From a virus: 23,372 nucleotides of DNA. The stretch covers positions 1-23,372 of the IMG/VR virus record IMGVR_UViG_3300042564_000375; one strand, written 5' to 3'. Shown piece after piece: positions 3,714 to 18,616 of this stretch. Below the pieces are notes generated by a model. The model ran no database searches. It was not told the DNA's origin and saw only the letters and a list, made by a program, of their open reading frames with translations. The position numbers and the translations under genes were made by a program. The stretch's first letter is position 1; every line of letters begins with the position of its first letter.

Positions 3714-6700
3714 TTGGCAACGTCATCAAAGTTTGTAGTAAAGAACGGCTTAACAGCCGGCTCTACAGACGTAATAAATTCTTCTGGTCAATGGATCGGA
3801 CCTAATTCTGGATTGATTGGACCTCAGGGACCAATCGGTCCAATCGGACCTATTGGGCCAATCGGTGCAACAGGACCACAAGGACCTATTGGACCCATTG
3901 GTCCTATTGGTCCAATCGGTGCCACTGGACCTCAGGGTCCTATCGGACCTATTGGGCCAATCGGTGCAACAGGACCACAGGGACCAATTGGTCCAATCGG
4001 ACCTATTGGGCCTATTGGACCTCAGGGACCTATTGGTCCTATCGGACCTATCGGACCAACTGGACCACAGGGACCAATTGGTCCAATCGGACCTATTGGC
4101 AGTCAAGGTATAACAGGACCAACAGGACCACAGGGACCAATTGGACCTATTGGACCTATCGGCGTGGGATATGATGGCGTCACATCAACAACATCAGCCA
4201 CACCTTCAACTGGTGGAACTATTGTTCTCACTACAAATAAACAAGGTGCATTTGCCACCGGCACTAGAGTTCGTGCAATTAATACCACTTCAAATTTATT
4301 TGAGGGTACAGTAACCATTTCTAGTGGTACAAACTTTTCTATTGCATCCGACTTTTCCATTGGTTCAACACTCGCATCTTCTTGGACTATCGTAGCCGCT
4401 GGACACAGAGGTTCTACAGGACCAACAGGACCACAAGGACCAATCGGACCTATTGGACCTATTGGGCCTATCGGACCAACAGGACCACAAGGACCTATCG
4501 GGCCTATCGGACCTATTGGGCCTATCGGACCAACTGGACCTCAGGGACCAATCGGACCTATCGGACCTATTGGACCAATAGGGCCTATCGGACCGAGAGG
4601 TGCAACTGGTCCACAAGGACCTATCGGACCTATTGGCCCTATTGGTCCTATTGGACCAACTGGACCACAGGGACCTATCGGGCCTATCGGACCTATTGGT
4701 CCAATTGGGCCACAGGGACCTATTGGACCTATTGGCCCTATCGGACCTATTGGCCCTATCGGACCTATTGGTGTGCGAGGCGGTTCAACATGGACACCAG
4801 TTATGTCTGGTGGTGTTGTACAAGATGCAAGCGATTCATCAAACTTTTATAAAGCATCGGGAAGTAATCCAGGTTGGGACGGCCAGGTTTATTCGTTGCA
4901 AGGATACCCAACAGCATATTGTTCATTTAAAGCAAGTTCCACTGGAAACTACATTATGATGGGTTTGAATACAGATCCAACCAATGATGCAAGCTATGCT
5001 TCAATTAATTTTTCTTGGTATCCACAAGCCGGTGGCGGTTTAGAAATTTATGAAGGTACAACTAATGTAGGCAATTTTGGCACATACACAACATCTTCTA
5101 TAATGTCAATTACATATGATGGTTCTGTTGTAAGATACTATCTTGATGGTGTATTAAAACGTTCTGTTAGTGTTTCAGGTCAAGTACTTCACTTAGATTC
5201 ATCATTCTATTTCACAGGGGGAAACACAACAGGTTTAAATAGTGTGGTGTTTGGACCAATGGGTGGATTAGGACCAACGGGACCACAGGGACCTATTGGA
5301 CCTATTGGACCAATCGGACCTATTGGGCCACAAGGACCTATTGGACCCATTGGGCCAATCGGACCAATTGGTAATACTGGACCACAAGGACCTATTGGAC
5401 CCATTGGGCCAATCGGACCTATTGGGCCAGCAAGTTTTGCCGCAACATCTGTAAACGCCTCAACATCGACTGGCATTCAGACAAGCTATTCAACAACAAT
5501 TAACACAACAACACCTGCCACAGGAACTTACGGTATTAATTTTTCTGGAGGTGGTACCGCAGACTACGCACAAGGTATTACTTGGGCATGGTCTTCTTCG
5601 GGTTCTCAAGCGGGCATCTATGTTCAGTCATCTGGTTCATACGGCACTAAGATGTACTTTGCAACGACAGACTCGTTTGCAACTGGTTCAAAAACTGCAA
5701 TGGTTATTGACCATGGCGGCGTAATAACAACCACACGAAACTATCTTCAAGCCGCTAGTTCACTACGTGCTCCAATCTTCTATGATTCGGATAACACAAG
5801 TTACTACGTAGACCCAACCAGCACAACTTCACTAAGAACAGTTGGCTCTTGGCGTTCAGATTCATCGACTTGGGATGGTGATTTTTCAGGAAAAATTCAA
5901 TATCATTCTAATCACTGGTATATTCAAGCTGCCGATTTATTAATTTATAGAAACAGTGGAGGATCAAATGTATTCACTGTAAATCAAAGTGGTTCAGCAG
6001 TTGCATCCGCAGACATGCGAGCACCGTTCTTTTATGATTCGGATAACACCGCATATTATGGCAATTTTGCAGGTGCATCAAATATAAATTCAATGCAGAT
6101 GGCTGGTACTCTTTCATTGTTTGCTGGTTCATATGAAGGATCCATACTTTTTGGTACAGAGCCAACATGGCGTTGTGGTATTAGACAACATGATGATGCT
6201 GATGCAGAGTTAAGAATTTGGGCTAAAAACGCAAATGGTATGATCTTTCTGGCAACGGGTTACGATGGTGAACCAGGAGCGATTGCTAGACCTACAAATG
6301 GCATAGCTATACAAAATAATAATGTGGGTATTGGAAACTTCAGTTCAAGTGATCCATCATACGATTTACACGTAGCCGATGGTGGTATAGGATATGCAAC
6401 AGCATCTTGGCGTGCTCCAATCTTTTATGATTCTGATGACACCGCATATTACTTAAACCCCAACTCTTTGTCATATATATCGTCTATTCAGATAGTTGGG
6501 TATAATACCGCCTCGTCCGCTTTAATGTTGAATTGGCCAACGTCCGGTTATATTGGTGTTTATGGTTCTGTTGTCAACTCAGCAAAACTTTTAAACTTCC
6601 GTGGGACTGGTGGTGATACTTATCGAGTTTCAACTGCACAGATGGGTGGTGCGGCTTATATAAACGGTGATGCCACATCTGGAAACGAAAGTGCCGCAGT

Positions 6701-8723
6701 AATTATTGCTCCAGGTGGTGGTCGTTATGGTACAACCGCATCAACTGTTTCAGGTGCAATCAAGATTACAATTCCTGAACCAGTTACAGATGTTATGTGT
6801 ACAATGACAATTCGGGTTTACACATATGATGGAGCATCTTTTGAAATCACTTGTGGTGGTTATCCCTATGGTACGGGTGGAGCGTCTGGTTTTGTAAATG
6901 CTTTTGCATACATGAACTCACGTGGACGTGGAGCACTTAATGTGCGCTTCGGAAATGATGGATCAAATGCTTGTGTGTGGATTGGTGAAACAGGCACCTC
7001 TTGGAATTATCCGCAAGTTGCGGTAATTGATTTCACTACTGGTTATTACGGACGTGATCCAAAACATTATTCAGATGGTTGGGTGGTTTCTTTTGTAGGT
7101 TCTTTTAATACTGTATTTAACACAATAACAGTTTATCCACACGCAAATTCAAGTGCTAATGGTGGAAATGTGTATGCACCCATATATTATGATTCTGATG
7201 ACACTGCATATTACGTAAACCCCGCCAGCACATCAAACTTAAATGCCGTTAACTTTAATGGCGTTTTGGCATGGTCTAACGGTACGTACGCGCTAGGCTC
7301 ACCTAGCTACGGTTTTAGATTTAACGACACCGCAAGCACAATCAACGCATTTATTATTGCTAATAGTGGGGACACAACTTCTCACGCATCTTCACGTGCT
7401 CCGATTTTTTACGACAGTAACAATACTGGTTATTATTTGGATCCAGCATCAACTTCAGTATTAAACCAGACCAATATTGGTTATCCATATGTTGGCAACG
7501 TCATTAATATGTCGTTGCAGTCGGGTTCAATCGCAACATCTTCGTTTGTTGGTATTGAATTTCATGTACCAGGTAATAGAGATTATTATATTGGTAAATT
7601 TGCCGGTGCATGGACACAACCATTGGACATACACTTTTATACGGGCATAAGGATACAGGCACACCAAAGTTATGATTATGGTACTTCAATATGGAATCTT
7701 TCATCAGGTAATATTCAAGCAAGTTTTGGCCAAGGTGGTGATAACGTATATCTTTATAGAACAACGTATGCGCCAGCTATATATGACTACAACGACACTG
7801 CTTATTACATAGACCCTAACTCAACCAGTCGCATTAGAAAAACTAATTTAATAGCATCGGGTTCTGCTTGGGATGACGGCTTAAACTTATATTCTTCTGA
7901 TGCAACTAATAGATGGAATCTTTTAGTAGATGAAGGTGATTCAGATTCATTCCGTTTAGCCTATAATAATTCTGAGGCACTAAGGGTTAACACTTCCAGA
8001 AATGTAACAATAAATGTTGATATACGTTCACCAATTTTCTACGACAACAACGACACTTCGTATTACGTGGACGCTGCCAGCACAAGCGTATTAAATGCCG
8101 TCAACACATGGGGTGAAATTGGTCCTCGCCGCAATGATAACGGCAGTCTTTTACGTTCTTACAACACTTCTGCTGGCAGCCCATTGCAATTCTATCTCGA
8201 CCACAGTTTAGGTGACGTAAACATCGGCAACAGCCGTGGTATTGTAAATTGCGGCGGCACTTACTGGGTTATAGCGAACTCGGTTCGGTCACCTATCTTC
8301 TACGACAGTAACAACACCGCTTATTATGCAGATTTTGCAAGCACTGGTGATTCTATTAGAGCCGCTGGTAACATTACAGCATATTACTCCGATATGAGAC
8401 TGAAGACTCATCTAGGTAAAATTGAAAATGCTTTAGAGAAAGTCAATAAACTTGAAGGCTTTTATTATGAAGCAAATGAAGTTGCACAGAAACTAGGATA
8501 TAAACCAAAACGTGAAGTTGGTGTTTCAGCGCAAGATGTACAAGAAGTGTTACCTGAAATTGTGGCAGATGCACCAATCAATAGTAATTACTTAACAATT
8601 GATTATGAAAGACTTACACCATTGTTGATTGAAGCTATCAAAGAACAAAACAAAGAAGTCGTAGACCTTCGTGCTAGAGTAGCTATGCTCGAATCGCTTA
8701 TTTCCAAATTAATAGATGTATAA
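3714..8723 (+). CDS. Giant collagen-like tail fibre with C-terminal S74 intramolecular chaperone
   Basis: 1669 residues from a TTG start backed by a strong Shine-Dalgarno. Domains in order: an N-terminal cassette (1-35, KNGLTAGST...INSSGQW), collagen-like (Gly-X-Y) tract 1 (36-150), an 83-residue module also found in the next gene (about 151-232), tract 2 (233-356), a jelly-roll/lectin-like region (about 357-513, with [11 protein letters not shown] and [14 protein letters not shown], recalling LamG/concanavalin folds), and tract 3 (514-572). Then come beta-rich modules punctuated by eight FYDSxNTxYY repeats (685-1545), and an S74 peptidase/chaperone domain from Ser1559 to the end. Ser1559 and Lys1564 in SDMRLK match the Ser-Lys dyad of this family, so the last 111 residues are probably released after trimer folding. 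The C-terminus carries a coiled-coil-like helix. By family knowledge and context this is a distal host-recognition fibre; the receptor is unknown. Confidence 0.9.
3819..4163 (+). repeat. Collagen-like GPI tract 1 of first fibre
   Basis: Encodes uninterrupted Gly-X-Y triplets dominated by GPI, with GPQ, GAT and GPT interspersed roughly every 4-6 triplets. At DNA level it is a 9-base microsatellite (ggacctatt and synonymous forms) containing perfect palindromes, for example 3981-3994 and 4071-4084. Confidence 0.95.
4161..4409 (+). repeat. 83-codon module duplicated at 9079-9327
   Basis: Encodes a module beginning with [12 protein letters not shown] and including [21 protein letters not shown] and LASSWTIV. 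The same module, exactly 249 bases long and with only scattered substitutions, occurs at 9079-9327 in the paralogous fibre. In both it separates collagen tracts 1 and 2. I recall similar modules in fibres of other aquatic phages; the function is unknown. Confidence 0.85.
4410..4781 (+). repeat. Collagen-like GPI tract 2 of first fibre
   Basis: Gly-X-Y triplets from GSTGPTGPQ to GPIGVRG, almost all GPI with GPT/GPQ/GAT interruptions and one GPR. It links the 83-residue module to the lectin-like region. Confidence 0.95.
5253..5429 (+). repeat. Collagen-like GPI tract 3 of first fibre
   Basis: A shorter Gly-X-Y run ([12 protein letters not shown] then GPI triplets) between the lectin-like region and the repeat-rich distal region. 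Confidence 0.95.
5766..8350 (+). repeat. Eight dispersed 'R(A/S)PIFYDSxNTxYYxDP' repeats
   Basis: About 24-residue motifs start at 5766, 6018, 6411, 7173, 7395, 7767, 8025 and 8286 (residues 685, 769, 900, 1154, 1228, 1352, 1438 and 1525). The core is [10 protein letters not shown] followed by xDP(A/N)ST. Spacings range from 222 to 762 bases because different beta-rich inserts sit between them. The motif appears to mark module boundaries along the fibre shaft. I recall it in fibres of other aquatic phages. Confidence 0.85.
8388..8720 (+). other. S74 intramolecular chaperone/auto-peptidase domain (within fibre 1)
   Basis: Begins at Ser1559 in YSDMRLK and runs to the C-terminus (111 residues), with [16 protein letters not shown] and the helix [16 protein letters not shown]. 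These are the conserved blocks of Peptidase_S74, the chaperone of phage endosialidases, L-shaped tail fibres and eukaryotic MYRF. The family cleaves N-terminal to the Ser by a Ser-Lys dyad; both residues are present (Ser1559, Lys1564). Confidence 0.85.
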
Positions 8724-8730
8724 GTAGTAG

Positions 8731-11700
8731 ATGGCAAATCCAAATAATTTTACAATAAAGAATGGTCTGACTGTTGGTTCAACAGCAGTCATCAACTCAT
8801 CTGGCGTTTGGACAGGCAGTCCAACTAACTTGTCTGGTCCAACAGGACCAACAGGACCTCAAGGTCCAATCGGACCTATCGGGCCAATTGGACCTATTGG
8901 ACCAATCGGTGCTACTGGACCAACAGGACCTCAGGGTCCAATCGGGCCTATCGGACCAATCGGACCTACAGGACCACAGGGACCAATCGGACCTATTGGA
9001 CCAACAGGACCTCAGGGACCTATTGGACCTATTGGTCCCATTGGACCTATCGGACCACAAGGACCAATCGGGCCAATCGGTGTCGGTTATGATGGCGTTA
9101 CATCAACTACTTCTGTAACACCTGCTTCTATTGGAACAATCGTTCTCACTACAAACAAGCAAGGTGCTTTTGCTACAGGCACCAGAATTCGTGCAGTCAA
9201 CACAGCCGCAAATTATTTTGAAGGTGTTGTCACAATCACATCTGGTACAAACTTCTCTATTGCGGCAGACTTCAACGTTGGTACAACACTCGCATCATCT
9301 TGGACAATCGTGTCAGCCGGTCATAGAGGTTCTACTGGACCACAAGGACCAATTGGACCTATTGGGCCTATCGGACCTATCGGACCACAAGGACCTATCG
9401 GGCCTATCGGACCAATTGGACCTATCGGACCTCAGGGACCTATTGGGCCTATCGGGCCAATCGGACCTATCGGTGCTACTGGACCTCAGGGACCAATCGG
9501 ACCTATTGGACCTATTGGACCAAGAGGTGCAACTGGACCACAAGGACCAATCGGACCCATTGGACCAATTGGTAACCAAGGACCTATCGGGCCAATTGGA
9601 CCTATCGGCGCAACTGGACCACAAGGACCCATCGGACCTATTGGACCAATTGGTAACCAAGGACCTATTGGACCCATTGGGCCTATCGGACCAATCGGGC
9701 CGACAGGACCACAAGGACCAATTGGACCTATCGGACCTATTGGTAACCAAGGACCTATTGGACCCATTGGGCCTATCGGACCTATTGGACCAAGAGGTGC
9801 CACAGGTCCACAAGGACCTATCGGACCTATTGGACCAATCGGACCAATCGGCAACACAGGACCACAAGGACCAATTGGACCTATCGGACCCATTGGACCT
9901 ATCGGGCCAATTGGAGCAGTTGCACCAAACTTCACTTCTGCAATTTCCAGCAACCCATTAAACGCAAGTAGCCCCGCTTCACTCAATTCAATTGGTTATG
10001 TAAGTTCTAACATACCAACATCATACGGTATTGGTGGATCAGTAGGCTCACAAACTGACGGTGGATTATATGTAGCAGGTTACAGCACAGACTGGTACCA
10101 TGAAATATATGGCGACTTTAGAACTGGTGGTATTGCTGTAAGAGGTAAATATAGTGGTACATGGCAAGCGTGGAGAAATATTCCCACTATTACTATTAGT
10201 GATACAGCACCTTCAATTTTTACTCCTGGTGATTTCTGGTGGGAATCAGACACAGGTAAACTGAAAATACGATACTATGATGGAACCAGTTCGCAATGGG
10301 TTGATGCTTTCCCAATTCCAGATTTTACACTTTACTTTTCAAAAGCAGGTGGCACAATCACTGGACCAGTTACCGCAAACAGCACACTTACAGTAACAGG
10401 CACGACAAGTGTAGGCTCATTAAGAATTGAGGGATATGGTCAAGTTATCAATTCATCTGGAGCATGGACAGGTCCGAACAGCGGGCTGATTGGACCACAG
10501 GGTCCTATCGGACCTATTGGACCTATTGGACCTATCGGACCAATTGGCAACCAAGGACCAGGTGGTCCTGCCGGACCAATTGGACCTATCGGACCAATTG
10601 GCAACCAAGGACCAGGTGGTCCTGCCGGACCAATTGGACCTATCGGACCAATTGGGCCTATTGGACCTATTGGACCTAGGGGGCCAACAGGACCACAGGG
10701 TCCTATCGGACCTATCGGTCCTATTGGACCCATTGGACCTATTGGCGCTTCATTCTCAACCTCAAATCAAGGTAACTTCGAATTTGCGGCTTCCGATAAT
10801 AGTTCTACATCTTATTCAGTAGCCGCAATAGAACTTAGAGAATCTAATTTTGGTGGATCAGGTTCGTATCTTCCTCCACGTCTAGGGTTTCATTGGGGTG
10901 GCGTTGTTGCATCGCAGATTGGTGTTGCATCTAATGGTAGGATTGAAGTGCTTAATAATCCAGGTACAAGTTATGAAACACTGATAGGTTCGATTTTGTA
11001 TGGAAATGATTCTATTCGTGCTCCAATTTTCTATGATACTAATAACACTGGTTATTACTTAGACCCACATTCCAGTTCTTTGGTGAGTACACTACGTGCT
11101 GATTCCTATTTGTACGTGGGTAACGGCTCTCAGATGACGATTAACTACGATCAGATTTGGCGCTCCGATGGCGGTCAACTACATTTGCAATACAGTGCGG
11201 CCGGTAACATTAATATATGTAATGGTGGTGGTTACGCATATGCTGTAACTTCATTTCGTGCTCCGATTTTTTATGATTCTAATGATACAGGATATTATTT
11301 AAATCCAAATAGTACGTCTTATGTATATTTGATGTCGTCAGCAACTGGCTATCAATACACAGCATATAACTCAGGAAGAAACCGAATTTGGAGTTTTGCA
11401 AATTCTGATGGTTACGGAATGGCTTATTTCCAAGGCTCAGGTGGTTATAATGGCACTACCGACATGATTGGTATGCACTTTGGTACAGCAAGTGTGGCAG
11501 GTTGTCAATTTACGTTTGTGTCATCTGGAGCATTTATTGCTTCAAATAACATCACTGCTTATTCAGATTTAAGACTGAAAGAAAACATTCAAGTTATTCC
11601 AAATGCTCTTGAAAAAGTTAAACAGATTCGTGGTGTAACTTATACCAGAAATGACACTGAGGATAAAGACACCAAATATGCTGGTGTGATTGCTCAAGAA

Positions 11701-11865
11701 GTAATGAAAGTTTTACCAGAAGTTATTATGGGTTCAGAGGAAACCCAATATTCAGTTGCATACGGAAACATGGTTGGTCTACTCATCGAAGCCATCAAAG
11801 AACAACAAGAGCAGATTGATTCATTAAAGTCTGAAATACAATCACTTAAAGAATTAAGAAATTAA
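8731..11865 (+). CDS. Second collagen-like tail fibre with S74 chaperone (paralog of preceding gene)
   Basis: 1044 residues; ATG lies 7 bases after the previous stop, so translation is probably coupled. Domains: N-terminal cassette (1-35), collagen-like tract 1 (36-117), the shared 83-residue module (about 117-199), tract 2 (200-395, the longest), a beta region (about 396-560) with [20 protein letters not shown] and [20 protein letters not shown], an internal copy of the N-terminal cassette ([16 protein letters not shown]), and tract 3 (588-672). The distal part has two FYDSxNTxYY repeats (763 and 843) and an S74 domain from Ser945. The dyad Ser945/Lys950 in SDLRLK is intact, so about 100 residues should be cleaved after folding. 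It shares the N-terminal architecture of the preceding gene but has different distal inserts, suggesting two fibres with a common attachment point and different receptor-binding surfaces (inference). Confidence 0.9.
8836..9081 (+). repeat. Collagen-like GPI tract 1 of second fibre
   Basis: Gly-X-Y triplets (GPTGPTGPQ then GPI runs) directly after the N-terminal cassette, ending at GPIGVGYDG where the shared module begins. Confidence 0.95.
9079..9327 (+). repeat. Second copy of the 83-codon fibre module
   Basis: Same length (249 bases) and position between collagen tracts 1 and 2 as the copy at 4161-4409, with conservative substitutions such as [18 protein letters not shown] versus [18 protein letters not shown]. 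Confidence 0.85.
9328..9915 (+). repeat. Collagen-like GPI tract 2 of second fibre
   Basis: The longest Gly-X-Y run in the window, 196 residues. Blocks of GPI are separated by GPQ, GAT, GPR and GNQ triplets. The GNQ triplets recur as a [13 protein letters not shown] cassette, showing internal block duplication. Confidence 0.95.
10492..10746 (+). repeat. Collagen-like GPI tract 3 of second fibre
   Basis: Gly-X-Y run with two nearly identical 63-base cassettes encoding [18 protein letters not shown] in tandem (about 10543-10668), followed by GPRGPTGPQ and further GPI triplets. Confidence 0.95.
11017..11325 (+). repeat. Two FYDSxNTxYY repeats of second fibre
   Basis: Copies at 11017 ([17 protein letters not shown]) and 11257 ([17 protein letters not shown]) match the eight copies in the preceding fibre gene. 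Confidence 0.85.
11563..11862 (+). other. S74 intramolecular chaperone/auto-peptidase domain (within fibre 2)
   Basis: Begins at Ser945 in [11 protein letters not shown], with [16 protein letters not shown] and [12 protein letters not shown] blocks and a C-terminal coiled coil ([16 protein letters not shown]). Ser945 and Lys950 form the expected dyad. It is diverged from the copy in the preceding fibre, so the two are old paralogs and not a recent duplication. Confidence 0.85.
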
Positions 11866-11867
11866 TA

Positions 11868-12917
11868 ATGGCTTTTATTTTTCCAACTTCACCAACAACA
11901 GGAGCGCAATTCGTTGCACCAACAGGTTACATCTATCTGTATGATGCAGGACCATCATGGACAACAAAAGGTGATACACAAACAACAAACCCATTTACAA
12001 ACTCTTTTAGGTATAGAACAATATACACAAGAGGATATGTTTCAGCTGGATATAAAAGTAGTTCACCTTGGAGAAACGTAAACAAAACACAGCACTCAAC
12101 CGATGTGACTACTAATCTTGGAGACATGGTTGACTATAATGCTTCTTATATTGGCGGCGGCTTTAGTGATTATTATCATTATGTTTATGGAATGTCTGGT
12201 ACTGTAAATGGTTCTTCAACACACACATCATCTGTTAATATGTCAACAGATTCAGGAAGAACTCACAATTCTATATGGAACACAAAAACAAGTAGAGGTG
12301 ACTGTGAAGCATTAATGAACTCAACATTGACTGTGGCTTATATAACTGGCGGTGCTTCTTCAGCAACAGATAAACACAACTATGTAACAGAAACAATGTA
12401 TAATGCAGGTTCTGTAGGAGCCAATCCTGCAACATCTGGTGGTACAGCTGGTGGTGTAGCTTCGCTGTTTGGACAGTTTAGGGGATGGATTGCAGTTAAC
12501 AGCACCGCCGCTTACATAGAATGGGCTACAGAAACATGGACTTCTGGTACATGGAGTTCGGGATCAGACGGACAACCTAAAGGATTATCAACTAAAATGG
12601 GTTATGGTTATTGTGCAACAGGTTCTTACGGCGGTTCTGCAACATATAACAAATGGAATGATTTTGTTCCAGGTACAACCGTTATGACAACAGTAGCCAG
12701 ACCTGATACATGCGGTGAAGAAAATCACCAGATTGGACAAAATCACGGTTATAGTTTAGGTTCATACAACGGTAATCAAACAAACAATACACAAAAAATA
12801 AATTATCTAACTGATACTTCAACAGCTATGGGCTCAGACACGCAACCAAAAGGACATGATGGAATGAGTTCGGGATGTTGCGGCACAGCCTCAGCATTCT
12901 TATTGGGTGGTGTATAA
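11868..12917 (+). CDS. Repeat-rich virion protein, probable fibre accessory/adhesin, copy 1
   Basis: 349 residues, starting 3 bases after the stop of the second fibre and overlapping the next gene by one base (TAATG). Rich in Tyr, Thr, Ser, Gly and Asn; no signal peptide or membrane segment. The N-terminus (MAFIFPTSPTTG) is followed by loosely repeated Tyr/Gly-rich segments (YTRGYVSAGYKSSSPW, HSTDVTTNLGDMVDYNASY, DKHNYVTETMYNAG, IEWATETWTSGTW), suggesting propeller- or kelch-like blades. The C-terminus has a conserved QPKGHDGMSS motif, then GCCG. It is clearly homologous to the next gene along its whole length. Position after S74 fibres recalls T4 gene 38 (adhesin/assembly) downstream of gene 37, but there is no sequence resemblance to gp38. 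A structural or receptor-binding role is inferred from context. Confidence 0.8.
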   Translation: MAFIFPTSPTTGAQFVAPTGYIYLYDAGPSWTTKGDTQTTNPFTNSFRYRTIYTRGYVSAGYKSSSPWRNVNKTQHSTDVTTNLGDMVDYNASYIGGGFSDYYHYVYGMSGTVNGSSTHTSSVNMSTDSGRTHNSIWNTKTSRGDCEALMNSTLTVAYITGGASSATDKHNYVTETMYNAGSVGANPATSGGTAGGVASLFGQFRGWIAVNSTAAYIEWATETWTSGTWSSGSDGQPKGLSTKMGYGYCATGSYGGSATYNKWNDFVPGTTVMTTVARPDTCGEENHQIGQNHGYSLGSYNGNQTNNTQKINYLTDTSTAMGSDTQPKGHDGMSSGCCGTASAFLLGGV

Positions 12918-13945
12918 TGGCTTTTGATTTCCCTTCTTCACCATCAGTTGGTAACACTTATGTGTCAGATAATGGTGTACTTTACATATATGATTCTAAT
13001 AGTTCATGGACTGTTTACGGTGACACCCAAACATCGAATCCATTCTCAGCAAATCCATTTAAATACAGAACAATATATTACAAAGGGTATGTGGTAGGTG
13101 GTTATAAAGATACAAGCCCATGGAAGAACACCAATAAAACTATACATGCAACAGATACGACAACAAATTTAGGTGATTCGATAGATAGAAATGCCGCATA
13201 TGTTGATGGAAGTTATAATGATTATTATCAATACATATATGCAACCTCAGAATCGTGGCCTGGAACAGGAACATATACTTCGTCATACAATATGGTTACA
13301 GAATCGAGTAGAACATACGATTCTGCTCGGGATACGAAACAATCTATGGATGGTTATGGTGATGCCGGTGTAATAATAAATTCAAATCTCACTTTGGCTT
13401 GGATATTAGGAACAGCAACAAACATAGACAAACATAATTTGGTAACAGAAGTGATGTATGCAACAGGTCAAGGTGGTTCAGCCGGCACTCCAGGTGATTT
13501 TGTTTGTACATGGTATGGACAATATTACGGATGGGTTAAACAGTCATATTCGGGAAGTCGTAATCACAAGATTGAATTTGCCACAGAAACATGGAGTTCG
13601 GCTGGACTAACAGTTGGTACTGACGGCTGGGGTAAAGCATTGATAACAAAAGAAGGTTATGCTTACGTTAAAAACGGTGGTAATATAACTGCAAGTGCAT
13701 ATAAAATAAATGATACAACTGGTTCAAATATTAGAACTGATTTAAGTTTTAACAATTCTGGTGAAGAAAATTATGAAACAGGACAAAATTGGGGTTATTG
13801 TTTAGGTGAATATAATGGCGCACAAAACAACAACACATATAAAGTGACACATGGTACGGATACATATACTGTGCTAGGGTCAACAGCACAACCAAAAGGG
13901 CATGATGGAATGAGTTCTGCCGCAATGGCATCAGCATCAGTTTGA
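12917..13945 (+). CDS. Repeat-rich virion protein, probable fibre accessory/adhesin, copy 2 (paralog)
   Basis: 342 residues from ATG at 12917, which overlaps the upstream stop (TAATG); the frame extends back to 12875, but the N-terminus MAFDFPSSPSVGNTYV aligns with that of the preceding protein, fixing this start. Shared blocks are GDTQTSNPF, KYRTIYYKGYVVGGYKDTSPW, ATDTTTNLGDSIDRNAAY, DKHNLVTEVMYATG, SGEENYETGQNWGYCLGEYN and the C-terminal QPKGHDGMSS. The loops between differ strongly, as expected for a receptor-binding pair that diverged after tandem duplication. The QPKGHDGMSS end is the best conserved segment, so it may attach both proteins to a common partner (inference). The function has not been assigned from sequence. 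Confidence 0.8.
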   Translation: MAFDFPSSPSVGNTYVSDNGVLYIYDSNSSWTVYGDTQTSNPFSANPFKYRTIYYKGYVVGGYKDTSPWKNTNKTIHATDTTTNLGDSIDRNAAYVDGSYNDYYQYIYATSESWPGTGTYTSSYNMVTESSRTYDSARDTKQSMDGYGDAGVIINSNLTLAWILGTATNIDKHNLVTEVMYATGQGGSAGTPGDFVCTWYGQYYGWVKQSYSGSRNHKIEFATETWSSAGLTVGTDGWGKALITKEGYAYVKNGGNITASAYKINDTTGSNIRTDLSFNNSGEENYETGQNWGYCLGEYNGAQNNNTYKVTHGTDTYTVLGSTAQPKGHDGMSSAAMASASV

Positions 13946-13955
13946 GGATAAACAC

Positions 13956-14507
13956 ATGAGATATTTTTTAGCAAATTTTAAGAGAAATATTCCACAAGGA
14001 ATTTCACAAGTAACATCAATGAGTGGTTTCCAAATATATAGTGTGAGTGATGAAATGTTGGAAACTAATCCTTTTGACGGCGTAACACACGAAGAAATAC
14101 CAGAAATTGAGGGTACGGTTGCTTGGAAATTTTATGGTGAAGTTAGAGGATATAGGTCTGCATATTCCGATGTTGAAGGCTTGGAGCCAGATGCAGATCA
14201 ACTTGCACAAGGTAAAAGAAAAACAAAAGTTTACCACACACCAGAAACAGAAGCCGCAACGGTTAGTTTATTAAAGCGTGTGTTCAGGTTGAATGTTCAA
14301 GAAATATTTGATGCAAGAGATAGCAGAGATGGTGAACAAGAAATTTTAAATGCAATTGAATCTTGCACGACAGTTAGAGAAATTGCGTATAAAAAGGAAG
14401 AATTATTGGGTATAGAAATGACCAGAACACAGTTGAGAGAATTGTTTATGTGGGATGAAACTACAGATTCAAGAAAAGGTAAGATGCATTTTATTTTAGG
14501 ATTTTAA
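13956..14507 (+). CDS. Hypothetical phage protein (183 aa)
   Basis: Starts with ATG at 13956 behind GAGG that overlaps the TGA stop of the previous gene. I do not recognise a family. The N-terminal half is beta/loop-like (MRYFLANFKRNIPQG...), with a TVAWKFYGEVRGYRSAYSDVE stretch around residues 50-70. The C-terminal half is charged and helical (RRVFRLNVQEIFDARD-like, AYKKEELLGIEMTRTQLRELF). No membrane or signal segment. A 1-base gap to the next gene implies co-translation. The position just after the fibre/adhesin cluster makes a fibre-assembly or attachment role possible but unproven. Confidence 0.75.
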   Translation: MRYFLANFKRNIPQGISQVTSMSGFQIYSVSDEMLETNPFDGVTHEEIPEIEGTVAWKFYGEVRGYRSAYSDVEGLEPDADQLAQGKRKTKVYHTPETEAATVSLLKRVFRLNVQEIFDARDSRDGEQEILNAIESCTTVREIAYKKEELLGIEMTRTQLRELFMWDETTDSRKGKMHFILGF

Positions 14508-14508
14508 T

Positions 14509-15222
14509 ATGGAAAATAATCAGATTTATGAAATTGTTGAAAATTATGGCTCATGGGCAATGTCAGATTTTCAGTCAAGATACTTTGTTGTAAACTCACA
14601 AGTAACAAATTATAGGAGAGTTAGACAGGCATTATTGGAAATAGAAACAAGACTGGCCGCAAAAAGACAAATCGAAAGAAACGTTTGGAAAACTAACACT
14701 CAGATTAAAATACTTAATCGAGATATTGAAAATGAAATTGATGAATTAAAGAAAGAATTATTATTCATCGAGTTAGATCAATTCAATTATGATCTGAATG
14801 TTTATGAGAGAAAATATAAAGTATGCATGGAAGAGTTGGACAATTTTGCTAAAATAATTAAAGATATTGTTCCAACAGTTGAAGATTTGAAAAGCTATGA
14901 GAAGCACGATGAAGTTGAAGAACGCAATTATTGGGTCACCAGAATGGCCAAACAAGCCGCAATGGATTTAATGTCTCAAGGTAGAATCGGACAAGGTAAT
15001 TTAGATTCTATTGCAATGATGCCACTTCACGACCAAGAAGAAACCATTAAGGCCGCATTGAAATACAATACGGTTTTAAATAGAGGTATTGGTGTGTTGG
15101 AAAAGAAAGCACTCGAAGAACTAGAAATGTCCCAAAATAAACCTGGTGACATGAATTATATTGATGATGTAGTTAAACAACAACTTAAAATTGAAAATAA
15201 AAATCAAGGTGAAAATATTTAG
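14509..15222 (+). CDS. Hypothetical coiled-coil phage protein (237 aa)
   Basis: Follows the previous stop by one base. Strongly charged and helical: residues about 40-115 (RRVRQALLEIETRLAAKRQ ... LNRDIENEIDELKKELLF) look like a long coiled coil. A second helical region (about 140-220) contains NYWVTRMAKQAAMDLMSQGR and a MPLHDQEETIKAAL segment. No enzyme motif or membrane segment is visible. Its end overlaps the start of the next gene. Unknown family; a scaffold, chaperone or adaptor is conceivable from the coiled coil and location. Confidence 0.75.
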   Translation: MENNQIYEIVENYGSWAMSDFQSRYFVVNSQVTNYRRVRQALLEIETRLAAKRQIERNVWKTNTQIKILNRDIENEIDELKKELLFIELDQFNYDLNVYERKYKVCMEELDNFAKIIKDIVPTVEDLKSYEKHDEVEERNYWVTRMAKQAAMDLMSQGRIGQGNLDSIAMMPLHDQEETIKAALKYNTVLNRGIGVLEKKALEELEMSQNKPGDMNYIDDVVKQQLKIENKNQGENI

Positions 15223-16837
15223 TATACCCCTCAATCCCAAGCTGAATGAGGAACAGTTCAACGAATTCTTAGAGTTTTGTAAAACGTATAAAGATTACAT
15301 ATACGACATATACTTTACTTGCAGGATTGCACCGTTTCTTCAGGACGCTATGGGTGATATCTTCATACAAACAGAAGATAATTTATTTGCCATTCAGACC
15401 GCACTTCATGTTCAAAGAGAAACTGGTATTCCAGTATCTGCAACTTTTAATAACATTGAAGTGCGGCCAGACCAAAAGAACCTGGACATTTGGATTAAAA
15501 ATTTCAGGCCATTGTACGAGTCTGGAATCAAAACCTGCACCCTACCACATACACATTGGATGAAAACTGGTCAAATTAAGTCAGAATTTCCAGACTTGTT
15601 TGTAAAGAATACCATTCTTCGGAATGTAAGTGAAGCCAGAGATGTTGCAAATTTGGCAGAGGCTGGTTTTGATTACGTAAACCTAGACCGAGATTTGATG
15701 AGAGATCAAGTAAGACTTGGTGAAATTAAAAAAGTAAAAGAAAAATACAATATAAAAATTTCACTTCTTGCTAATGAAGGTTGTTTAGGTGGTTGTCCAG
15801 TAATGGATGAACACTTTCAGTTCAACAACACAAGAACTGGACCACAATATTTCAATGACCCAATTAGTAGGGTCAGTTGTCCACAATGGGACACACACGA
15901 CAAAGCAATTGCATTAAAAACGGCAAACTTTCCACCTTGGAGAGAAGACTGGATTGAATTGTTACAGTACGTAGACGTAATCAAAATGCATGGTCGGGAA
16001 AGCACCGACAGAATGTTTGAGACTATGAATATCATCAAACGTTTTGTAAATAACGATGAGGTTTTATTTGATACATTTGACGACTATTTGAAAGAAACAG
16101 GTCTTGAAAATAAGCCGATTGATATCTGGCGCAATAAGATAAAAACATGTAAGTTTGATTGTTGGGATTGTAACTACTGTGATAAGGTTTGGCACGCCAA
16201 AGGCAATACAAACAACAAAAAAGTTGAAGCTGTAGCAAACATATTAGTAGATTCGGTAAATCTTAAATTGAACCGAACAGTAGAAGGTATAACTGCAAAC
16301 CGAACCAGACAATTATTGAATCAATTAGGTAAAATATCAACGTCATATCTTGAAATTGGTGTTTTAAATGGTGGCACTTTCTGTAGTACTTTGGATGGAA
16401 ATTCACTCAAAGCATATGCAGTAGACCATTGGAAGAATGAAACACAAGCATCAAACGGAACAACAAACATAAAAACGTCAAAACAAACATTCATAGATAA
16501 TGTTAGACAGTTTAAAAATGATAATACCGTTAGACTCTTTGACAGTCATTTTTTACAGGTCGATAAAAAACAAATAGATTACATTGATATGTTTTTCTAT
16601 GACGCCGAACACTCACATGAGATGACAAGTGCCGCAGTTAGGTATTTCTCAGATAAATTTAGAGATGAATCCATATTGATTTTTGATGATGCAAACTTTG
16701 ACGGAGTAGTTTCTGGAGCAAAAGAAGGTATCAAAGAAGCAGGGTTAGAAGTAATTTATGAGAAGCTAATTCTAAATGAAATGGAAGATCCAGACCAATG
16801 GTGGAATGGACTGTATATTGTAATTATTAGGAAATAA
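15209..16837 (+). CDS. U32-peptidase-like Fe-S domain fused to a class I SAM methyltransferase
   Basis: 542 residues from GTG at 15209 (MKIFSIPLNPKL), overlapping the previous gene by 14 bases; an in-frame TTG at 15191 is the alternative start. Residues 1-330 look like a TIM-barrel of the U32 peptidase/UbiU-UbiV/RlhA group: LDRDLMRD, then ISLLANEGCLGGCPVMDEH matching the family's 'NxxCLxxCPxR' signature. Cysteines are at 192, 196, 224 and a 314/318/321/324 cluster (CKFDCWDCNYC), enough to hold an Fe-S cluster. Residues about 375-542 form a Methyltransf_24-like domain: YLEIGVLNGGTFC (motif I, Glu382), YAVDHWKNE, then MFFYDAEHSHEMT and ILIFDDANFDG. In bacteria, Fe-S U32 proteins act in hydroxylation of RNA or ubiquinone precursors. 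A combined modification of a tRNA, lipid or sugar substrate is inferred; no substrate is visible. Confidence 0.8.
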   Translation: MKIFSIPLNPKLNEEQFNEFLEFCKTYKDYIYDIYFTCRIAPFLQDAMGDIFIQTEDNLFAIQTALHVQRETGIPVSATFNNIEVRPDQKNLDIWIKNFRPLYESGIKTCTLPHTHWMKTGQIKSEFPDLFVKNTILRNVSEARDVANLAEAGFDYVNLDRDLMRDQVRLGEIKKVKEKYNIKISLLANEGCLGGCPVMDEHFQFNNTRTGPQYFNDPISRVSCPQWDTHDKAIALKTANFPPWREDWIELLQYVDVIKMHGRESTDRMFETMNIIKRFVNNDEVLFDTFDDYLKETGLENKPIDIWRNKIKTCKFDCWDCNYCDKVWHAKGNTNNKKVEAVANILVDSVNLKLNRTVEGITANRTRQLLNQLGKISTSYLEIGVLNGGTFCSTLDGNSLKAYAVDHWKNETQASNGTTNIKTSKQTFIDNVRQFKNDNTVRLFDSHFLQVDKKQIDYIDMFFYDAEHSHEMTSAAVRYFSDKFRDESILIFDDANFDGVVSGAKEGIKEAGLEVIYEKLILNEMEDPDQWWNGLYIVIIRK

Positions 16838-16838
16838 A

Positions 16839-17876
16839 ATGTTTTTATTGAAAGGTTTAGAATATTTGTGGATGCTGGTATTCATTATGATTACCGCAGG
16901 TATTGCAAAAGAACAAAATCTTTTTGCTAGTGCGTTTGCATATATTCAAGATACTGTTAAAAGCAATCGTATAATGGTTGCATTGGTTTCAGCAATTGGT
17001 GGAATTTTACCAATCGAGGGTCGGGTTACAGTCAGTGCTGGTGTATTAGACACGATGTGTTCAAATCATTCACACAATCACGGTAGAGAAAAAATGGGTA
17101 TCGTGGACTACCTTGGCAATCACCATTATTATCTTTGGAGTCCATTAGAAAAGACGGTCATTTTACCAATTGCCGCATTTGGTTTAACTTATGCCGCATG
17201 GATGTCAATGGTTTGGCCACTTCTCGCAGTATCACTTGCATTCATTGCAGGTTATATTTTCTTCACAGTTAAAGAAGAAGATATACATATCGACCGTACA
17301 GGTGACTTTAAAATTTCAGCAGTGCTTCGGAACGTTTTACCTTTCTTTACCGCAATAGGTGTCTACATTTATATGGGTGGAAAAGACAATGTTTTTGAAA
17401 TCTTTGGATTGCTTGCATTATATTATTGTTTGATTACCCAAACCTGGGATTACAAAAAGATTTTTAACTATATTAACTGGCAGGTTGTTCTTACTGTTGC
17501 AGTTGCTATTATTCTAGGCAACTATTTCAAATCACAAGAAGCTATGTTCAAAGCATGGTTGACAGGTTCGGTTATTGATCCAACAACTCTTGTAGGCATG
17601 GCAACCATTAGTGCAATCGGTTTTATTGCCAGTTTTCTGATGGGTAGTAGCGGAAAATACATAGCATTTGCTGTATTAACCGCACAGGTTTTTGGAGTAG
17701 AATATTTCTTATGGTTCTTTGCTGTTGATTATGTTGGATATCTAATAAGTCCAACACACAAATGTGTTGCCGTTGGAAATAGATACTTTGGAACTCCATT
17801 GGCTACATACTATAAAGCATTAGGAACTTGGGGTGTATCAATGCTTTTAGTTGCTGGTCTGTTTACTTTCATATAA
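16839..17876 (+). CDS. Polytopic membrane protein, DUF401-like permease
   Basis: 345 residues with about nine or ten hydrophobic helices, for example LEYLWMLVFIMITAGIA near the start, VILPIAAFGLTYAAW, VVLTVAVAIILGNYF and MLLVAGLFTFI at the end. GGILPIEGRVTVSAGVLDTM resembles the 'LPMPGGxxxSAP' signature of DUF401, and the later DYLGNHHYYLWSPLEKTVILP matches the family's 'NYWFRHxWEYxWPLYP' segment; DYVGYLISPTHKCVAVGNRYF matches the C-terminal 'GxLLSPxHxCLVxT' region. DUF401 proteins belong to the ion-transporter-like permeases with no settled substrate. A His-rich loop (HSHNHGREK ... GNHHYY) lies between the second and third helices and could bind metal. One base separates it from the preceding gene, so the two probably work together. 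Very unusual between structural genes. Confidence 0.75.
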   Translation: MFLLKGLEYLWMLVFIMITAGIAKEQNLFASAFAYIQDTVKSNRIMVALVSAIGGILPIEGRVTVSAGVLDTMCSNHSHNHGREKMGIVDYLGNHHYYLWSPLEKTVILPIAAFGLTYAAWMSMVWPLLAVSLAFIAGYIFFTVKEEDIHIDRTGDFKISAVLRNVLPFFTAIGVYIYMGGKDNVFEIFGLLALYYCLITQTWDYKKIFNYINWQVVLTVAVAIILGNYFKSQEAMFKAWLTGSVIDPTTLVGMATISAIGFIASFLMGSSGKYIAFAVLTAQVFGVEYFLWFFAVDYVGYLISPTHKCVAVGNRYFGTPLATYYKALGTWGVSMLLVAGLFTFI

Positions 17877-17897: not shown

Positions 17898-18191
17898 ATG
17901 TCAATTAACTATAATTATTCAATAAACACAGTAAAGAAAATTAATGAAAATGGATTTGAAAATGCTGTTGTTCAAGTCTATTGGTCATTAGTAGGTACAA
18001 ATGAATCTGGTCAAACCAGTAGAGTGCATGGAACCTCTACTTTTTCTACCAATGAATTAAATTCAAATGAAGATTTTATACCATTCGACCAAGTGTCTGA
18101 TGAAACTATTGTTTCTTGGATACAAAATTCCGTCTCGGAAGAACAAGATACACACATGAAAAATCTAATACAACAAGAAATCGGTGTATAA
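17898..18191 (+). CDS. Small late protein, paralog of next gene (97 aa)
   Basis: Sits directly behind a perfect late promoter. Contains AVVQVYWSLVGTNESGQTSRV and FIPFDQVSDETIVSWIQNSV, which align with AVVQTYWQKIGTDENGN and FIPFEDLTEEDVLDWIKTVV in the following gene, so the two arose by duplication. I recall this fold from small proteins of aquatic T4-like phages near the neck genes (possibly the group named DUF7936; not certain). No membrane or enzyme motif. Strong late promoters suggest an abundant late product, so a minor virion or assembly protein is plausible. Confidence 0.75.
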   Translation: MSINYNYSINTVKKINENGFENAVVQVYWSLVGTNESGQTSRVHGTSTFSTNELNSNEDFIPFDQVSDETIVSWIQNSVSEEQDTHMKNLIQQEIGV

Positions 18192-18229
18192 TCATTCACC
18201 ATAACCTGCCCACATTTTAGGAGAAAATA

Positions 18230-18616
18230 ATGGCAATTACTTACACATGGAAAATTACCGGTCTAAAGACCAAAGACGTATCAGACGACAAACCAGCGGC
18301 TGTTGTACAAACATACTGGCAAAAGATTGGTACAGATGAGAACGGAAACGAAGGAACATTCTCTGGTGCAACACCGTTTACGGTTGACCCAACAGATGAG
18401 TCTGGTCCATTCATTCCCTTTGAAGATTTGACGGAAGAAGATGTACTAGACTGGATCAAAACAGTCGTTGTCGGTGGCTATGCAGATCATGTTAACGGGC
18501 AGATTGCAAAACAGATTGAAGACAAGATCAGTCCAGTGGTGGAGAATCGTTTACCATGGGCGCCAGTTACGGCAAACACTCCAGCCCCTGGCATGAGTGC
18601 TAATACAGCTGGATAA
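18230..18616 (+). CDS. Small late protein, second paralog (128 aa)
   Basis: Preceded by AGGAGA 5 bases before the ATG. Starts MAITYTWKITGLKTKDV, then AVVQTYWQKIGTDENGNEG, FSGATPFTVD, FIPFEDLTEEDVLDWIKTVV and a polar Pro-rich tail (APVTANTPAPGMSANTAG) absent from the shorter paralog upstream. The first half looks like a beta-sandwich with alternating strands and the second like a helix. Function unknown; likely late virion-related. Confidence 0.75.
   Translation: MAITYTWKITGLKTKDVSDDKPAAVVQTYWQKIGTDENGNEGTFSGATPFTVDPTDESGPFIPFEDLTEEDVLDWIKTVVVGGYADHVNGQIAKQIEDKISPVVENRLPWAPVTANTPAPGMSANTAG

Follow-up and report, generated by a model that had tools for sequence, protein, structure and literature searches.

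A compact, virus-rich form of the DUF401 transporter family in a T4-like phage and its relatives

Introduction

The window analyzed here, a 23,372-base virus record of a T4-like phage from an environmental metagenome, encodes on its plus strand (positions 16839-17876) a transporter of the DUF401 family in a compact viral form of 345 aa, in one intact frame that starts with ATG. What is new is that this compact form of the family is widespread, under selection and virus-rich, whereas a compact phage form was already known at the level of database names. Many-helix secondary transporters are regarded as uncommon among lytic phages. A literature search returned no transport report for any DUF401 protein, and under the names DUF401 and PF04165 we found no discussion in the portions of text available, where the mention of DUF401 concerns intergenic distances. 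On balance, we consider it probable that the product is an elevator-type secondary transporter that would carry a small organic anion across the inner membrane of the infected cell, encoded by a gene of an accessory cassette.

The gene and its family

The stop codon of the upstream gene ends at 16837, two bases 5' of the DUF401 start codon, and the open frame comprises 350 codons; a longer N-terminus is therefore impossible, and the start was not mis-called. The protein scores 35.9 bits against Pfam DUF401 (PF04165; cut-off 24, E=7.4e-9), with a match that covers model positions 63-387 of 393, and is contained in PHROG 14035 (E=2.9e-76), a family of "unknown function". Four further viral relatives reach 34.6-44.6 bits in Pfam DUF401, L025 reaches 40.9, and six of six large carrier contigs exceed the cut-off. 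The TIGR00529 equivalog does not include the window protein, which at 50.7 bits is far under the NCBI cut-off of 378.4. The dN/dS ratio of the window gene is 0.049 against L003 and 0.053 against L005, the two pairs of seven in which it could be computed, the other five being saturated. The Pfam and PHROG 14035 matches and a dN/dS of about 0.05 indicate that the frame is not a chance ORF; nor is it decaying, and purifying selection on it is strong. An earlier note, made from the letters alone, had read the gene as a DUF401-like permease in a phage, a reading that would fall if there were no match to DUF401 or an ion transporter, or fewer than six helices. This reading holds: the family cut-off is passed, the fold match extends over the whole length, and the hydropathy profile shows some nine to ten hydrophobic stretches, as had been estimated.

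The family profile matched 317 ORFs in the 318 loci examined, of which 292 are full length and 208 distinct, the last including two proteins from metagenome-assembled genomes (MAGs) and three from cultured phages. All but two of these 208 proteins are 330-379 aa long (one has 320-329 aa and one 400). Relative to the Pfam model, the clade is shorter by about 60 residues at the N-terminus, as the matches of the relatives start at model positions 57-63; coverage of the whole model including the N-terminus was not found, and 207 of the 208 proteins are under 380 aa. Judged by sequence, the viral proteins are best described as a shortened clade of DUF401 rather than as typical members.

Predicted fold and conserved sites

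The AlphaFold model, based on a 49-row alignment, has a mean pLDDT of 87.3 and a pTM of 0.83, and contains 17 helical segments, in which we see about eight helices that span the membrane and two hairpins of the re-entrant kind. In a Foldseek search against the PDB, the top 21 rows all belong to the ion-transporter (IT) superfamily (MleN, NaDC, LaINDY, TRAP, ArsB, NaS1 and INDY), with MleN as the best row (E 1.2e-4). VIA comparison gave Z 23.7 for NaDC1 (rmsd 4.0, 335 aligned), 22.9 for Pho90, 22.8 for LaINDY (rmsd 3.9, 343 of the 345 residues aligned), 20.2 for MleN and 14.5 for ArsB, and the first glutamate-transporter row appears at Z 4.1. The predicted model would thus share the two-hairpin, broken-helix fold of the IT superfamily over most of the chain. 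A sequence-profile search against the PDB found nothing.

Conserved motifs lie at four helix breaks of the model. PIEGRVTVSAG (residues 58-68; 17010..17042, plus strand) would form the first hairpin tip, with PIEGR between helices 43-56 and 62-71, and P58, G61 and R62 are invariant in 208 of 208 proteins. The segment NHHYYLWSPLEK (residues 94-105; 17118..17153, plus strand) falls at a helix break, where HHYYLWSPLEK stands between helices 81-97 and 105-114; H95, H96, Y98, W100, S101, P102, E104 and K105 are invariant (208/208). MGSSGK (residues 268-273; 17640..17657, plus strand) is placed at the second hairpin tip, between helices 251-268 and 271-285, with G269 and S270 invariant in all 208; K273 is kept in 206 proteins and replaced by R in two. 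The second broken helix contains LISPTHKCVAVGNRYF (residues 302-317; 17742..17789, plus strand), with SPTHKC between helices 287-302 and 308-317 and with P305, H307, C309, G313, Y316 and F317 invariant (208/208). The three segments quoted in the earlier note are those at residues 58-68, 94-105 and 302-317, and all of them are conserved in the viral clade. In most of the 208 proteins, the two tips read P-I-[EP]-G-R and G-S-[SD]-[GA]-K. Two classical DUF401 proteins were used for comparison, that of L131 and a copy on a Cetobacterium plasmid, which adjoins a Tn3 transposase and was translated by eye. With the viral form they have in common an LPxPG motif, SPxHxC and a His preceding the first broken helix, so that the third segment is plain in them too; GR and HHYYxWSPxEK, found in the viral form, occur in neither.

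We infer from the model that the four breaks represent two hairpins and two broken helices arranged round one site. The position of the invariant residues at predicted helix breaks and hairpin tips argues for a transporter, in which the two tips and the two broken helices would form a single substrate site that crosses the membrane in an elevator-type movement. YL[WI]SP is repeated in both broken helices, which suits the inverted-repeat plan of such transporters; a profile comparison of one half of the protein against the other gave no significant match.

The best whole-length fold matches are members of the DASS/SLC13 group (LaINDY, VcINDY, NaDC1 and NaS1), with which the phage protein shares about 8-11% sequence identity. 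The aligned ranges begin at residue 77 of NaDC1 and residue 90 of LaINDY, and the phage protein therefore has no counterpart of their N-terminal part, roughly the first 76-90 residues. According to PMC7553777, Ser-Asn-Thr motifs bind carboxylates in DASS carriers, and in the exchanger LaINDY Arg159 and His392 replace the Na+ sites of VcINDY. The two Ser-Asn-Thr motifs of the DASS transport domain are absent from the phage protein, and the basic residue at each phage hairpin tip recalls the Na+-surrogate residues described there for LaINDY. By this analogy with LaINDY, a basic residue at each tip and the lack of Ser-Asn-Thr motifs make a sodium-independent mode of the phage clade possible. Similarly, the large membrane subunit of TRAP transporters (SiaQM and relatives) shares the IT fold (VIA Z 11.8-13.3). 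In contrast to TRAP, which has a binding protein, none was seen with the phage DUF401, and a small membrane protein, found upstream of DUF401 in 8 of 94 loci, is absent from the window.

The cargo would be a small organic anion, such as a di- or tricarboxylate or similar. The fold alone, however, does not fix an organic anion, because transporters of arsenite, of sulfate and of Na+/malate-lactate are also among the IT-fold matches. An ion mover or an efflux protein, acting in Na+/H+ or malate-lactate antiport or on arsenite or another toxic anion and holding the pH, sodium or stress state of the cell until lysis, is a possible if unlikely alternative. It would agree with the leading place of MleN and the listing of ArsB, and the basic residues at both hairpin tips would be compatible with sodium-independent exchange; but carboxylate, sulfate and phosphate carriers stand higher in VIA (Z 20.1 to 23.7), and the annotated neighbor families include no arsenic or pH gene.

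Genomic context

Downstream of DUF401 lies the gene of a head-tail adaptor, along with matches to the T4 neck protein (E=7.9e-34) and to gp15, the T4 tail sheath stabiliser (E=4.9e-60). These genes bear out the phage setting assumed in the earlier note. Directly 3' of DUF401, two tandem DUF7936 genes were observed at 17898-18616, of which L003 has one. The upstream side holds two very long ORFs (3714-11865), with hundreds of GPIGPIGP collagen-like repeats, which are probably tail fibres. The cassette then comprises four ORFs of 349, 356, 183 and 237 aa with no function assigned (11868..15222, plus strand), a gene that fuses a U32-like N-terminal fold to an O-methyltransferase (phrog_1458; 15191..16837, plus strand, 548 aa, TTG start), and DUF401 itself. 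Six cassette proteins of L003, the four ORFs among them, are 92-99% identical to those of the window, as is gp13 (98%), whereas gp14, gp15 and gp16 are 68-76% identical; in L402-L404, by contrast, gp13-gp15 are 93% identical to the window and other genes occupy the cassette slot. These contrasts in identity indicate that the slot between fibre and neck genes is exchanged between related phages. Read by eye, the slot of L402 (1368-8324) holds sulfotransferase-, nucleotidyltransferase- and sugar-nucleotide epimerase-like genes, perhaps a glycan-modification alternative.

Gain and loss of the gene are also apparent from 80 gp15-anchored loci, 25 of which have at least 5 kb before gp13: DUF401 and the U32-like gene occur together in 3 of these, neither occurs in 22, and one alone in none. 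DUF401 thus corresponds to an auxiliary metabolic gene in the sense of a host-type metabolic gene in true phage genomes that not all relatives need (present in 3/25, absent from 22/25). We therefore regard its role as probably that of an auxiliary metabolic gene in an accessory cassette, often directly behind the U32-like/O-methyltransferase gene, and not that of a virion part. In the phage S-CAM4, DUF401 lies in a different neighborhood, near a transaldolase gene, a known kind of auxiliary metabolic gene. A candidate link to a late promoter was rejected: the window contains two copies of TATAAATA, close to the chance expectation of 1.79, so that the copy at the DUF401 stop codon is meaningless.

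It is doubtful, in our view, that the gene encodes a membrane protein with a transporter fold that serves superinfection block, lysis aid or another phage purpose instead of transport. In its favor, a location amid virion genes points to late expression, the usual N-terminal scaffold is incomplete, which also counts against the transporter reading in general, and neither classical protein has the virus-specific GR and HHYYxWSPxEK. Yet the core retains its two halves, conserved positions are concentrated at the predicted substrate site, and the S-CAM4 copy stands in another neighborhood.

The C-terminal part of the fusion protein matches Pfam Methyltransf_24 and, in VIA, TomG (Z 16.1) and TrmR (Z 15.2), and its best profile match among PDB sequences is YrrM/TrmR (E=0.015). 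The N-terminal part resembles the U32 protein Mk0906, with a Foldseek E of 2.5e-6 and a Z of 14.9 across 224 residues. The model has a mean pLDDT of 80.3 overall and is weaker in the N-terminal part, where several blocks lie at 53-66; many Cys residues of the protein are invariant. The fusion looks like a hydroxylase joined to a methylase of the COMT/TrmR type. U32 proteins such as TrhP have a role in prephenate-dependent RNA hydroxylation (PMC6599085). A TrhP-like role of the fusion protein (P0002) is disfavored, since the essential TrhP residues E162, C170 and C177 (PMC6599085) are spaced unlike the invariant E196, C198 and C202.

DUF401 follows the fusion gene in 64 of 80 fusion-gene loci, is missing from 4 despite at least 4.5 kb of downstream sequence, and the remaining 12 are too short; gp13 comes directly after the fusion gene in six of these 12 and in L350. 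In 43 of these 64 loci, the DUF401 ORF overlaps the stop of the upstream gene or starts no more than 11 bases beyond it, a count that includes mechanically assigned ORF starts and some near-duplicate contigs. Relatives of the fusion gene occur in 123 phage records, all cyanophages. The two genes are often linked but not a strict pair, because 123 phage records carry the U32-like gene and 9 DUF401, and 60 of 94 distinct loci, some of them short, have DUF401 but lack the U32-like gene within about 7 kb. Over the range tried, the match to the U32-like/O-methyltransferase gene in L329 and L376 is interrupted by a stop in frame.

Other neighbors recur within about 7 kb of DUF401 in the 94 distinct loci: a 2OG-Fe(II) oxygenase of one family in 40, the U32-like gene in 34, and a tryptophan halogenase in 18 (L025:5568-7094, PF04820, E=5.7e-96, and 17 others). 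In addition, phrog_7084 is a neighbor in 28 loci, and a signal-peptide-like outer-membrane beta-barrel protein (PF13505) lies directly 3' of DUF401 in 27 (L020:11038-11628 and 26 others); no plasmid relative was found for this outer-membrane protein (P0003). Among the 80 gp15-anchored loci, the oxygenase is found in two, both with DUF401, which occurs in ten. T4-like phages of water often carry 2OG-Fe(II) oxygenase genes anyway, and the link of 2-oxoglutarate to DUF401 is therefore weak.

Directly 5' of DUF401, 8 of the 94 loci (L096, L105, L107, L108, L110, L116, L117 and L129) encode a protein of 116 aa with about three hydrophobic stretches, which might take the place of the absent N-terminal helices. 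A more speculative proposal, which we hold to be improbable, would make DUF401 the aquatic phages' own minimal elevator transporter, stripped of its N-terminal scaffold helices and feeding a carboxylate to phage-borne modification enzymes, namely the U32-like/O-methyltransferase fusion and often 2-oxoglutarate-dependent oxygenases. In the subgroup of eight loci, the 116-aa protein may then provide the scaffold in the form of a subunit of its own, comparable to the small one of TRAP transporters.

Distribution and origin

A protein-query scan of IMG/VR returned 50 viral loci, and an alignment-query scan at least 575 relatives (599 stretches listed). The earlier note had considered such permeases rare, which does not apply to this virus group with its 575 or more viral stretches, although a match was found in only 9 of 50,697 named phage records, each from a Synechococcus phage at 32-35% identity. 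The same compact form is carried by Synechococcus phage metaG-MbCM1 ("hypothetical protein Glov_0511", 345 aa, 34.8% identical) and, as a viral-protein structure search revealed, by Ralstonia phage RP12 ("DUF401 family protein", 346 aa, 34% identical); both are known by database name, the literature search returned no study of either, and their hosts and phage groups differ from those of the window. Photosystem reaction-centre genes are confined to the cyanophage subgroup, in 2 of 13 large carrier contigs, and the host of the window's group is therefore probably not a cyanobacterium.

The His-rich loop, in which the earlier note had suspected a phage-specific metal site, varies within the clade. 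HSHNHG (residues 77-82; 17067..17084, plus strand) is not conserved, the loop has no His in 156 of the 208 proteins and its length varies, and the proposed site was rejected; the invariant His residues of the clade are H95, H96 and H307. That the protein is a phage-specific metal transporter with the metal bound by this loop is accordingly very improbable, even though HSHNHG is present in the window protein and H95, H96, H307 and C309 could bind a metal; the top fold rows, moreover, are anion, TRAP and antiporter proteins and not metal carriers.

A plasmid search gave no match to the window protein, and plasmid carriage of the compact form was rejected on this ground. Among 84,980 species scanned, two short-form loci were found, each in a bacterial MAG and adjoining an MFS transporter gene, and 282 and 286 genomes from the two MAG phyla contained no other short form and one classical DUF401. 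In a tree of 54 rows, the viral proteins form one large clade with the two MAG proteins inside or adjoining: L055 groups among viral proteins (support 91/97), and L056 lacks a resolved position, on a long branch. Classical DUF401 proteins fall far outside the viral clade, with long-branch warnings. A host donor lineage sought by phylogeny was not found, the two MAG proteins being the only cellular-looking short-form relatives, and recent host capture was rejected given these two relatives and the tree placement. In the MAG contig of L056, a JmjC-type oxygenase gene (PF08007, 8034-9428) was observed a few hundred bases 3' of the short DUF401. A functionless host gene fragment or an assembly artefact, to which these two bacterial contigs might point, is scarcely credible against the low dN/dS, the large virus-rich clade, and the fact that in many contigs the same gene is surrounded by genes of phages and that named cyanophages have it in their genomes.

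Significance

The transporter is intact, and the same shortened version occurs in hundreds of phage contigs; the phages therefore probably employ it to transport a small molecule through the membrane of infected cells. One compact transporter type thus recurs in hundreds of aquatic phage contigs, often tied to one enzyme gene, which allows a direct test of whether such phages alter the small-molecule exchange of the cells they infect. As a small variant that occurs in nature, the phage protein also lends itself to the question of how much scaffold elevator transport requires.
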